Below, one piece after another: positions 50,655 through 61,130 of a stretch of DNA of 64,000 bases. The notes beneath the pieces were generated by a model. That model had not been told where the DNA came from. It saw nothing but the letters and a program-made list of their open reading frames with translations, and made no database searches. The translations under genes and the position numbers were made by a program. How positions within the stretch are numbered: position 1 is the stretch's first letter; the number at the start of each line of letters is the position of its first letter. Source of the stretch: Erpobdella octoculata (taxonomy: Eukaryota; Annelida; Clitellata; Hirudinida; Erpobdellidae); NCBI GenBank assembly GCA_963978895.1, contig OZ022243.1, positions 14,157,765 through 14,221,764 on the forward strand, written 5' to 3'.

Positions 50655-50870
50655 TGATATAACTAGAGTTAGCCCGTCAAAAATGACAGATTTGTTGAAA
50701 TCTCATTGTATATTATTTTTCGATTGCAGCGCCACCTTTTTTGATCTTTAGAATTGACAGCGTACAATTGCGTAATAACTTTTATAACACGCCTTCGCGC
50801 ACTAGTTTTATCAACTGCTGACCACAACGCCGCCGCGTTATGCAAAATTGCTAGCATACATACATAGTAC
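50655..50870 (-). mobile_element. Helitron-like 3'-end repeat, inverted copy (empty site)
   Basis: On the minus strand it ends CTGTCATTTTTGACGGGCTA, then ACTCTAG, i.e. a TGTCA/TGACG-type hairpin about 10 bp before CTAG, as in Helitrons. It corresponds to 60660-60915 on the plus strand. At about 50803-50818 it has GATAAAACTAGTG without the 40-bp palindrome found at the matching place in the other copy. Confidence 0.65.
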
Positions 50871-54425: not shown

Positions 54426-54481
54426 ATGTACAGTCATTTTGCTGTTATTTGACCAAATGTCAGCAGTGGTGCACACTGAAT
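54421..54481 (-). pseudogene. hAT transposase middle piece, part 2 (inverted)
   Basis: On the minus strand: DSVCTTADIWSNNSKMTVHW, the hAT block that follows the BED finger. It continues from the piece at 56507-56657, split by the P-like element. Confidence 0.75.
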
Positions 54482-56499
54482 CATGGACGTCTATATAATA
54501 GCATCTGGACAATCAGCCAAATCCTTATGAGCTGTTGTGTTGTACCCAGTTGGTCTCATATCTATTTAGCTGTTCGTATTCGAGTTGTTCGGTCTGCGTT
54601 TGGATTTATAGTTATAAAGCCTGTACTGGTTACTTTTAACATTGAAAATGTTTATAACATTGAAATATAATAATATTTATCGTTTAAATTACGCTTTAGT
54701 TTAGTGACTGCGCTCAACACTTGTTTATTTAAATATAGCTATTTTTAGCTTTACGCTATCGCTATCGTAAGTTTGACTAGATTGACGTTTGGAAACAATT
54801 GGGATTGCTACTATTTCGAACAATTGGATTTATTTCTGTATTATAAAAGTTTTTATTGCTAAAAATGCCGCACAAGGGCCAGGCATATCGTTGCAAAACA
54901 GGCTACAAAAGTGATCCGGGACTATCGGCGGGCGAAAATAAACCAACAATGCATAGCGTTCCTATAAATGACAATATACTTCTACAGAAATATAATTAAA
55001 GCAAATCCTCGAAATGACTGGAAACCAACTGCCAGTTCAAAAATTTGCTCAATTTTTTTCAATGAAGTAGACTTTGAATCCAGTTGTGTCGATACAAATC
55101 AGCATCAAAGAAGGAAAAAACTAAAATTAGAGTCCGGACAGCTTTTTCAACGTCGACTGAAAAAAGGTGCAGTACCTAGTATTTTTCCCGGTGCTCCAAA
55201 ATACTGCTCAACTTGTAGAGTACCGTCAAGATCTACTGTTTGTGCTACAGTTTCAATTCGCCACGAGTACGAAATAAAAAGAAATGTTGAGATGGAGAAG
55301 AATTTTTTCAAAAGTGATTGTTTAGCAAATCAAACACCTAACGTTTTGGCAGAACGGTTGAAGAATGAAATGACTTTGCCAACAAACTTCACTATTACCA
55401 CAACTGATGGCATTTTGTTAATTTATTGTTTTAAAGTAGAAGCTGGTAAAGTTAAAGTGGCTGTTTGCATCTCGGTGGCAGAAAATCTGTCAACGGTTGT
55501 CAGTGTGGTTAATGTAAATGTTCCAGCCGACACACTCAAAGATTTTTTAACAAACGGATTAGTTACGACAACGTCTCAGCTTATTAATTTGGCAGCTCGG
55601 ATGAAGACTTGGTCAGAAAATTTAAAAACTATAACCTGTCCGTCATTCACAAAAATGGCTATTAGCATTTTAAAAGAAAGAATAAACATCTTAACAGAAT
55701 GCAGTCCAGAAAGTGAAAAACAACCCAAACTTGAATTTGTTTTAGAACAAGCCAAACTGCTTACAAAAAGCAAGTTTCATTGTCATTACTCACCAGGGCT
55801 CACAATCATGTCATATATACGATTCATGCAGAAAGTCCAGCAGCTTATAACACTTTAAGAGAATCGAGTTGTGTAACTATTCAATTGACCAGCATTTTGA
55901 AAAAGATCATCAAATGTCTTGATGAAATGTATGGGCTCGATAATTTGGTGCTTGCTATTTAATTTCTGTAAAACAGATCCTTGATAGCAGCAGCAGGAAG
56001 ATTTGACATGACCATCAGAGTACACTTTAATTTTATGCGTACATTGCTAGAAAGTTTTTAAAGAAATCAAGGCATCACCAGAACTGGCAAAATTATTTCT
56101 ATCGTCATCGAGTCACAGAGTGCTTTTCTGCAAAATAATTGATTGCACACCTTTGAATCTTAACTCAGAACTGAAAACATACAATTTTTACTGTTTTAAT
56201 TATCACAATGTTAAAATATTGAAAATTTTCTAATAACTTTGACTTTACTACTAATAACTATAATTGTTATAATTTTAAATTCTTAAGTTTACTTTTTCTT
56301 TATTTTTACTTTTTATGGATTTTGGTTAAGTAAAATATATTTGTTTTATCTCAAAACAGCGTTGTGTTTTTCACTCCACATGATTTAGCTATAAATCAAA
56401 CTTATAATGCGTATATGAAGCATTGCGCAGTCATGGGACCAACTGGGTACAAGGCTATTATTGGCTGACTGTCCAGATGCTATTATATAGACGTCCATG
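54482..56499 (+). mobile_element. P-like element with THAP domain
   Basis: A 2,018-bp element with inverted ends (CATGGACGTCTATATAATAG at both termini, with similarity continuing about 60 bp inward). It is flanked by a perfect 7-bp duplication ACTGAAT (54475-54481 and 56500-56506). The CATG start matches P-element ends. It encodes a broken THAP-domain transposase. P elements usually duplicate 8 bp; 7 bp is seen both here and at the related 40-bp copy at 60729. Confidence 0.85.
54865..55962 (+). pseudogene. P-like transposase with THAP domain, frameshifted
   Basis: ATG at 54865 opens MPHKGQAYRCKTGYKS, the first half of a THAP zinc finger. A frameshift at about 54960 moves to the frame starting at 54968: NPRNDWKPTASSKICSIFF, then NEVDFE and LKKGAVPSIFP. 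THAP fingers are C2CH; the His expected after KICS is Phe here. A P-element-like middle and helical region follow to 55858, and another frame (55780-55962) carries AESPAAYNTLRE. The acidic catalytic residues cannot be placed with confidence and the C-terminal part is missing. Confidence 0.78.
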
Positions 56500-56506
56500 A
56501 CTGAAT

Positions 56507-56825: not shown

Positions 56826-57069
56826 AAATAAAGATTTTGTGACTTGTAATGAATTCTAGAAGAATTATCATCAGTAGCAAATTTAATAAGCGCAAACTTT
56901 TTAGTAATGATTTCATGATTTAAAATCATCAAAATCATGATTTTGATTTAAAATCATTTTTTGGTGGAAAGAAAAAATGATTTTGATTTCAAAATCACTC
57001 TGAAGTGAATGATTTTGATTTTGCTTTCAAATCATTTGAAATGTGATTTTACCCAACACTGAATTAAAT

Positions 57070-58378: not shown

Positions 58379-60219
58379 TCACTCACTCACTCACTCACTC
58401 ACTCACTCACTCACTCACTCACTCACTCACTCACTCACTCACTCACTCACTCACTCACTCACTCACTCACTCACTCACTCACTCACTCACTCACTCACTC
58501 ACTCACTCACTCACTCACTCACTCACTCACTCACTCACTCACTCACTCACTCACTCACTCACTCACTCACTCACTCACTCACTCACTCACTCACTCACTC
58601 ACTCACTCACTCACTCACTCACTCACTCACTCACTCACTCACTCACTCACTCACTCACTCACTCACTCACTCACTCACTCACTCACTCACTCACTCACTC
58701 ACTCACTCACTCACTCACTCACTCACTCACTCACTCACTCACTCACTCACTCACTCACTCACTCACTCACTCACTCACTCACTCACTCACTCACTCACTC
58801 ACTCACTCACTCACTCACTCACTCACTCACTCACTCACTCACTCACTCACTCACTCACTCACTCACTCACTCACTCACTCACTCACTCACTCACTCACTC
58901 ACTCACTCACTCACTCACTCACTCACTCACTCACTCACTCACTCACTCACTCACTCACTCACTCACTCACTCACTCACTCACTCACTCACTCACTCACTC
59001 ACTCACTCACTCACTCACTCACTCACTCACTCACTCACTCACTCACTCACTCACTCACTCACTCACTCACTCACTCACTCACTCACTCACTCACTCACTC
59101 ACTCACTCACTCACTCACTCACTCACTCACTCACTCACTCACTCACTCACTCACTCACTCACTCACTCACTCACTCACTCACTCACTCACTCACTCACTC
59201 ACTCACTCACTCACTCACTCACTCACTCACTCACTCACTCACTCACTCACTCACTCACTCACTCACTCACTCACTCACTCACTCACTCACTCACTCACTC
59301 ACTCACTCACTCACTCACTCACTCACTCACTCACTCACTCACTCACTCACTCACTCACTCACTCACTCACTCACTCACTCACTCACTCACTCACTCACTC
59401 ACTCACTCACTCACTCACTCACTCACTCACTCACTCACTCACTCACTCACTCACTCACTCACTCACTCACTCACTCACTCACTCACTCACTCACTCACTC
59501 ACTCACTCACTCACTCACTCACTCACTCACTCACTCACTCACTCACTCACTCACTCACTCACTCACTCACTCACTCACTCACTCACTCACTCACTCACTC
59601 ACTCACTCACTCACTCACTCACTCACTCACTCACTCACTCACTCACTCACTCACTCACTCACTCACTCACTCACTCACTCACTCACTCACTCACTCACTC
59701 ACTCACTCACTCACTCACTCACTCACTCACTCACTCACTCACTCACTCACTCACTCACTCACTCACTCACTCACTCACTCACTCACTCACTCACTCACTC
59801 ACTCACTCACTCACTCACTCACTCACTCACTCACTCACTCACTCACTCACTCACTCACTCACTCACTCACTCACTCACTCACTCACTCACTCACTCACTC
59901 ACTCACTCACTCACTCACTCACTCACTCACTCACTCACTCACTCACTCACTCACTCACTCACTCACTCACTCACTCACTCACTCACTCACTCACTCACTC
60001 ACTCACTCACTCACTCACTCACTCACTCACTCACTCACTCACTCACTCACTCACTCACTCACTCACTCACTCACTCACTCACTCACTCACTCACTCACTC
60101 ACTCACTCACTCACTCACTCACTCACTCACTCACTCACTCACTCACTCACTCACTCACTCACTCACTCACTCACTCACTCACTCACTCACTCACTCACTC
60201 ACTCACTCACTCACTCACT
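58379..60219. repeat. (CACT)n microsatellite, 1.84 kb, about 460 units
   Basis: The tetranucleotide TCAC is repeated without any interruption that I could see. This is the longest simple repeat in the window by a factor of three. Confidence 0.99.
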
Positions 60220-60244: not shown

Positions 60245-61130
60245 TCTTATAGATGATATCAGTGTGCACGTAAGAATCTATGGCGCGCAGGCGTGTAATA
60301 AAAATTATTATGCAATTGTACCTATCTCAGTCTCAGTCCTAGATATCAAAAGAAGTGGCGCTGCAATCGAAAAACATTACATAATAGATTTAAAAAAATC
60401 TCAGAACCAAGGACCACTTCTCGATGGCCGTCAATTCACAAGAAATGTCGTGTATACTGAAATTCTTTAATAACCAATTATTGCACTTTTCAATTTTCAC
60501 ATCTTTTGAATTTATATGAAATACTTTAGTAAATTGAAAAATTTAACACAATAAAAAATTTCATTAAATTTGCTGATATATAAAAAATTTTTTTATGGTT
60601 ATCAAATGTCATTTTGTTTTTGTTAACTATTTTTTATATTTGGGGCGGGCAAAACCACTATGTATGTATGATAGCAATTACACATAACTCGGCGACCGCA
60701 GGGGTCAGCAATCAGCAGTTGATAAAAGCATGGACGTCTGTATAATAGCTATTATACAGACGTCCATGATAAAAGTTAGTGAGCGCAGGCGTGTTATAAA
60801 AGTTATTACGGAAGTGTACAATGACAGTCTCAAAGATCAAAAAGGTGATACTGCAATCAGAAATAAACATATAATAAAATTTTAAAAAATCCGTCATTTT
60901 TGACGGGCTAATTCTAGTTCTTTAATAAAATACTTATTGCATTCTTTAATTTTCACATCCTTTAAATTTATATAAAATACGTTAGTAAATTGAATATTTA
61001 AACACAATAAAAAGTTTTATTAAATTTACCTATGTATACAAAAAAAAATTTTTATGGTTATCAAATGTCATTTTGCTTTTGTTGACAATTTTTTTTATAA
61101 AATGTATTCAAAGTACAACGTATTTTTAAA
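60245..61130 (+). repeat. Tandem duplication of a Helitron-like repeat region
   Basis: Unit 1 (about 60270-60650) and unit 2 (about 60780-61110) share GCGCAGGCGTGTWATAAAA, TCTTTAATAAM, CAATTTTCACATC-type, and TTATGGTTATCAAATGTCAT motifs in the same order. Unit 2 includes the hairpin CCGTCATTTTTGACGG followed by TTCTAG, a Helitron-type 3' end (about 60900-60926). In unit 1 that segment is replaced. The 40-bp palindrome lies just before unit 2. Confidence 0.65.
60722..60775. mobile_element. 40-bp P-like mini-element (two terminal repeats only) with 7-bp duplication
   Basis: Positions 60729-60768 form a perfect palindrome of two 20-bp arms (CATGGACGTCTGTATAATAG). The arm matches the ends of the P-like element at 54482-56499 with one substitution. 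ATAAAAG flanks it on both sides (60722-60728, 60769-60775). A related repeat copy at about 50.8 kb (minus strand) has GATAAAACTAGTG with no insertion, an empty site. Confidence 0.85.

Follow-up and report, generated by a model that had tools for sequence, protein, structure and literature searches.

A 40-bp palindrome in Erpobdella octoculata is probably the excision scar of a P-like transposon

The genomic window analyzed here, a stretch of 64,000 nucleotides (64 kb) of Erpobdella octoculata DNA, contains a perfect 40-bp palindrome made of the terminal inverted repeats (TIRs) of a P-like transposon and set between two copies of a target-site duplication (TSD). We conclude that this palindrome is very probably the scar of a P-type excision of a larger P-like element and not a tiny jumping element; on this reading, what looks like a puzzling "transposon without an inside" becomes the readable record of one excision. 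If so, the palindrome belongs among the excision footprints, a class of product already known, and the longer stagger that it predicts becomes the main point of interest.

Results

Positions 60729–60768 form a perfect 20+20 palindrome flanked on each side by a 7-bp ATAAAAG copy, which gives the overall layout ATAAAAG-CATGGACGTCTGTATAATAG CTATTATACAGACGTCCATG-ATAAAAG across positions 60722–60775 (Table 1). Re-reading of these positions bore out the preliminary description, which had reported both the perfect palindrome and the perfect 7-bp duplications, as well as an arm nearly identical to the ends of a 2-kb P-like element at 54482–56499. The arm matches the end of this element at 19 of 20 positions with one mismatch, and TIR position 12 is G in both palindrome arms and A in both ends of the 2-kb element. 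Given this difference, any element excised at 60729 would have been a different copy or subfamily from the 2-kb element, and neither palindrome arm appears to have changed since the join. Outside low-complexity sequence and simple repeats, the palindrome is the longest in the 64-kb window, the runner-up being 10+10. With bases modelled as iid, 2.5e-7 palindromes with 20-nt arms are expected per window, and the probability of a 7-bp flanking repeat by chance is 1e-4. When the window was scanned with the arm at up to 5 edits, the arm itself was recovered only at the two ends of the 2-kb element and in the two arms of the palindrome, the remaining rows being far weaker matches.

A palindrome of 10+10 is also present at 56928–56947, between two 8-bp TTAAAATC copies, and could be a hAT-like scar or could simply reflect local repetition. 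We set it aside because it lies within a stretch of repeated AAAATC/GATTTT words.

Table 1. Positions of the palindrome, the 2-kb element and the empty site in the 64-kb window
Feature	Position	Strand	Remark
Left target-site duplication ATAAAAG, 7 bp	60722..60728	+	Empty site has one copy-equivalent, ATAAAA plus one-base difference
Left TIR stub, 20 nt, CATGGACGTCTGTATAATAG	60729..60748	+	Putative retained 3′ tail of left flank; 1 mismatch to 2-kb TIR
Central self-complementary GC	60748..60749	.	Putative 2-nt annealing point of two tails, or blunt 20+20 join
Right TIR stub, 20 nt, exact inverted copy	60749..60768	-	
Right target-site duplication ATAAAAG, 7 bp	60769..60775	+	
P-like element, 2018 bp, decayed	54482..56499	+	Same TIR family as palindrome; A (not G) at TIR position 12
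Target duplication ACTGAAT, 7 bp	54475..54481	+	Second copy at 56500-56506
Left subterminal inverted repeat, 20 bp	54540..54559	+	Partner at 56433-56452, 95% complementary
Open frame of 2-kb element	54968..55855	+	Weak match to second part of THAP domain; stop same as homologue P0001
Paralogous host-repeat copy without insertion (empty site)	50661..50868	-	Sequence and global alignment

Copies of the host repeat in which the palindrome lies were found at 60463–60639, 60918–61098, 60285–60400 and 50661–50868, two of them being direct repeats approximately 456–459 bases apart. A pure TCAC tandem array of approximately 460 copies (58379–60219, 100% matches in Tandem Repeats Finder) lies just upstream of the palindrome.

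The host-repeat copy at 50661–50868, on the minus strand, is without the 40 bp and without one ATAAAAG copy, its sequence GTTGATAAAA-CTAGTG aligning with the GTTGATAAAAG-palindrome-ATAAAAGTTAGTG of the window. In a global alignment of the two copies, the score rose from 159 with the insert to 206 after removal of the 40 bp and one duplication, and a 48-base gap shrank to one base. This copy also differs from the palindrome locus at other places, including a 7-base gap upstream, and is therefore a paralogue and not the same locus. Its lack of the 40 bp and of one duplication shows that something was inserted at 60722–60775. At the palindrome locus both target duplications are kept, with ATAAAAG on the left and on the right, whereas the empty site is without the second copy.

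The 2-kb element carries the CATG ends and the TIR plus subterminal inverted repeat of the P superfamily. Its TIR is 39 bp long with 1 mismatch, of which 30 bp are perfect. The target duplications at both loci (ACTGAAT and ATAAAAG) are 7 bp, which fits Galileo and not Drosophila P. The open frame gave a match to the THAP domain (PF05485) with an E value of 0.0051 and 18 bits, below the Pfam cut-off of 23.9, that covers profile positions 36–87 only. The Pfam search of the frame gave no transposase match, P transposase is absent among its 6 PDB sequence matches, and its AlphaFold model, with a mean pLDDT of 33.8, was too poor for use. The sole homologue found in a protein collection (P0001) has ten member sequences and shows 96% identity over 55% of the frame. 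As this homologue comes from another source, has ten members and ends at the same stop, the decayed form has seemingly been copied, which suggests that it is itself repeated. The 2-kb element is P-like in its ends, in having a subterminal repeat besides the TIR and in the length of its duplication; the protein evidence is thin, and we regard the P membership of its transposase as weak.

The palindrome holds only terminal TIR nucleotides, 20 (19–21) nt per end, symmetrically and within the 39-bp TIR, and nothing beyond TIR position 20–21 is present in the 40-bp unit, nor is the subterminal repeat. The only joins that yield the observed 40 bp are 19+21, 20+20, 20+21 sharing 1 nt and 21+21 sharing 2 nt. 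The palindrome centre is a self-complementary GC at arm positions 20–21.

Drosophila P transposase is reported to cut the 5′ strands of the element 17 bp inside its 31-bp TIRs (PMC7776569), and the flanks that remain after excision are described as keeping both target duplications together with identical 17-nt 3′ tails (Chan et al., 2010; PMC2895639). Two tails of identical sequence can anneal to each other only at a self-complementary tip. We propose that a longer P-like element, belonging to the TIR family of the 2-kb element and with G at TIR position 12, entered the host repeat and produced the 7-bp duplication ATAAAAG. A P-type transposase may later have excised this element by nicking, approximately 20–22 nt inside each TIR, the strand that carries the element's 5′ end; each flank would then retain its duplication and a 3′ tail of TIR sequence, the same in both flanks. 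To judge from the junction, host end joining would then have annealed the tails through the self-complementary GC at their tips, or made a blunt join, with subsequent fill-in. A 21-nt tail annealed at GC would give exactly 40 bp, and the predicted product is TSD, 20 bp of TIR, 20 bp of inverted TIR and TSD, a footprint that would have no function of its own.

Compared with the 17-nt Drosophila stagger, and with the stub of at most 17 nt looked for in a footprint, the tail stub here is too long at 20–21 nt. This length weighs against a mechanism identical to that of Drosophila; it cannot be assumed, though, that the Drosophila length is transferable to a distant family. If the palindrome is a footprint, the longer stub implies that the inner cut in the excised element's family lies at least approximately 20 nt in, most simply, we infer, at 21 or 22, with short repair synthesis at both tails as the alternative. 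The 7-bp TSD at the palindrome, as opposed to the 8 bp of Drosophila P, also counts against the footprint analogy. No second, differently joined footprint was found, the palindrome at 60729–60768 being the only one known here.

Discussion

The same 40 bp might also have been a mobile unit of two TIR stubs, moved in trans by a P-like transposase and inserted with a 7-bp duplication, and the palindrome, the duplication and the empty site are all compatible with such an origin. If true, a spacer-free 40-bp pair of P-like ends would move as a unit. We nevertheless consider this quite improbable and rejected it as first choice. Drosophila P is reported to require no less than 138 bp of 5′-end and 216 bp of 3′-end sequence, and the P-MITEs of Anopheles to retain somewhat less than 100 bp at each end (both PMC1562414), whereas the 40 bp lack even the subterminal repeat. 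No further copy exists within the 64-kb window, and a deletion product would be required as the ancestor, followed by a second, unprecedented step. We sampled 28 loci from eight large contigs of 28.9–52.9 Mb (272,000 bases, of which 13,378 are N), and none of them contained an arm at 2 or fewer mismatches; since these eight contigs sum to approximately 330 Mb, the sample speaks only against a very abundant family, with several thousand copies, and not against one of low or middle copy number. Pattern scans of viral and genome contig collections, which may omit the genome of the window itself, gave 0 matches each. Weaker arm matches in the genome sample, at L008:2831 (3 mismatches) and L024:3688 (4 mismatches), were not counted as copies, and a blastn comparison of the L008 stretch with the 10-kb locus around it gave no usable partner end. 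These two sites share an ATGGACG.CAATATAATAG core and perhaps represent a related family or chance. Of the earlier claim that a P-like copy had transposed here, the insertion with target duplication (seen from the empty-site paralogue) and the P-like ends hold, and movement of the 40-bp unit itself is not supported. As the 40 bp fit an end-joined excision product, for which a product class known from Drosophila suffices, nothing follows about whether a transposase can pair or move spacer-free 20-bp ends, one of the two options in the preliminary description.

Alternatively, an inserted longer P-like copy may have been reduced to 20 bp per end, either through an ordinary internal deletion or through sister-chromatid gap repair that stopped early. 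Internally deleted P copies and products of repair synthesis plus joining are described in the literature as well known, and the 2-nt shared GC would be compatible with a small microhomology; this route, however, needs chance break points at equal depth in both ends. In a rough model that places breaks uniformly on the 2-kb element, 44 of 2,033,136 break pairs (2.2e-5) gave a perfect palindrome of 24–80 bp, and the same outcome was reached by 44 of 1,296 pairs (3.4%) when both breaks were 5–40 nt from the ends. With these values we rejected random internal deletion as first choice and consider loss of the interior by either path unlikely. Abortive gap repair after insertion had been suggested before: an origin after insertion comes closer to our reading, and end joining of cut ends is the simpler route to it. 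A different transposon superfamily that leaves hairpin flanks would be a further source of palindromes, hAT excision being described as giving hairpin-ended flanking DNA and footprints of irregular form, but the palindrome here is the TIR sequence of a P-like element and not flank sequence. A chance palindrome was rejected at 2.5e-7 expected per window, and we attach almost no probability to either of these last origins.

An excision footprint, if this is what the palindrome is, would reveal a P-like family with 20–22-nt tails instead of 17, legible from genomic scars, which would be new and is likelier than a mobile 40-bp unit. Should more such scars be found, sequence data alone could reveal, through the stub lengths, where an untested P-like transposase cleaves, and the junctions could tell how the animal repairs breaks with long 3′ tails. 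The palindrome also calls for caution, in that very short TIR-only "MITEs" may be excision scars.

Among P superfamily elements, Galileo resembles the loci described here in its mostly 7-bp target duplications, around which a palindromic target motif has been reported, and differs in its very long TIRs and its TSD consensus GTATTAC (PMC4168063), compared with a 39-bp TIR and the TSDs ATAAAAG and ACTGAAT here. Zebrafish Pdre2/THAP9, for which excision has been shown in cells, has the same layout of TIR plus subterminal inverted repeat, but with a 13-bp TIR, a 12-bp subterminal repeat, an 8-bp duplication and CATACC ends (PMC10983969). The P-MITEs of Anopheles gambiae are likewise non-autonomous relatives with flanking duplications; they are described as repeated, with somewhat less than 100 bp of P sequence per end, a spacer and 8-bp duplications, none of which the 40-bp unit shows (PMC1562414).

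The closest comparison is offered by the footprints of Drosophila melanogaster P, a review stating that, when excision is followed by end joining, overhang sequence stays behind as a footprint between the target duplications. Table 1 of Chan et al. (2010; PMC2895639) lists 66 isolates by our own sum (68 in the figure legend), and both 8-bp duplications are whole in 44 of the 66. Perfect TIR palindromes between whole 8-bp duplications account for 19 of the 66 (14 measuring 30 bp and 5 measuring 32 bp), and these 19 junctions are 2-nt self-complementary, with AT or TA near the tip. A point against the comparison is that the isolates come from Rad51-deficient flies; with Rad51, repair synthesis is reported to precede joining in most recovered products. 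The Drosophila footprints are assayed excisions, whereas the palindrome described here is a natural genomic locus, and their arms are 15–16 nt instead of 20 and their duplications 8 instead of 7 bp. What the two share is a TIR palindrome with a 2-nt self-complementary centre, intact duplications and CATG outer ends (PMC2895639).
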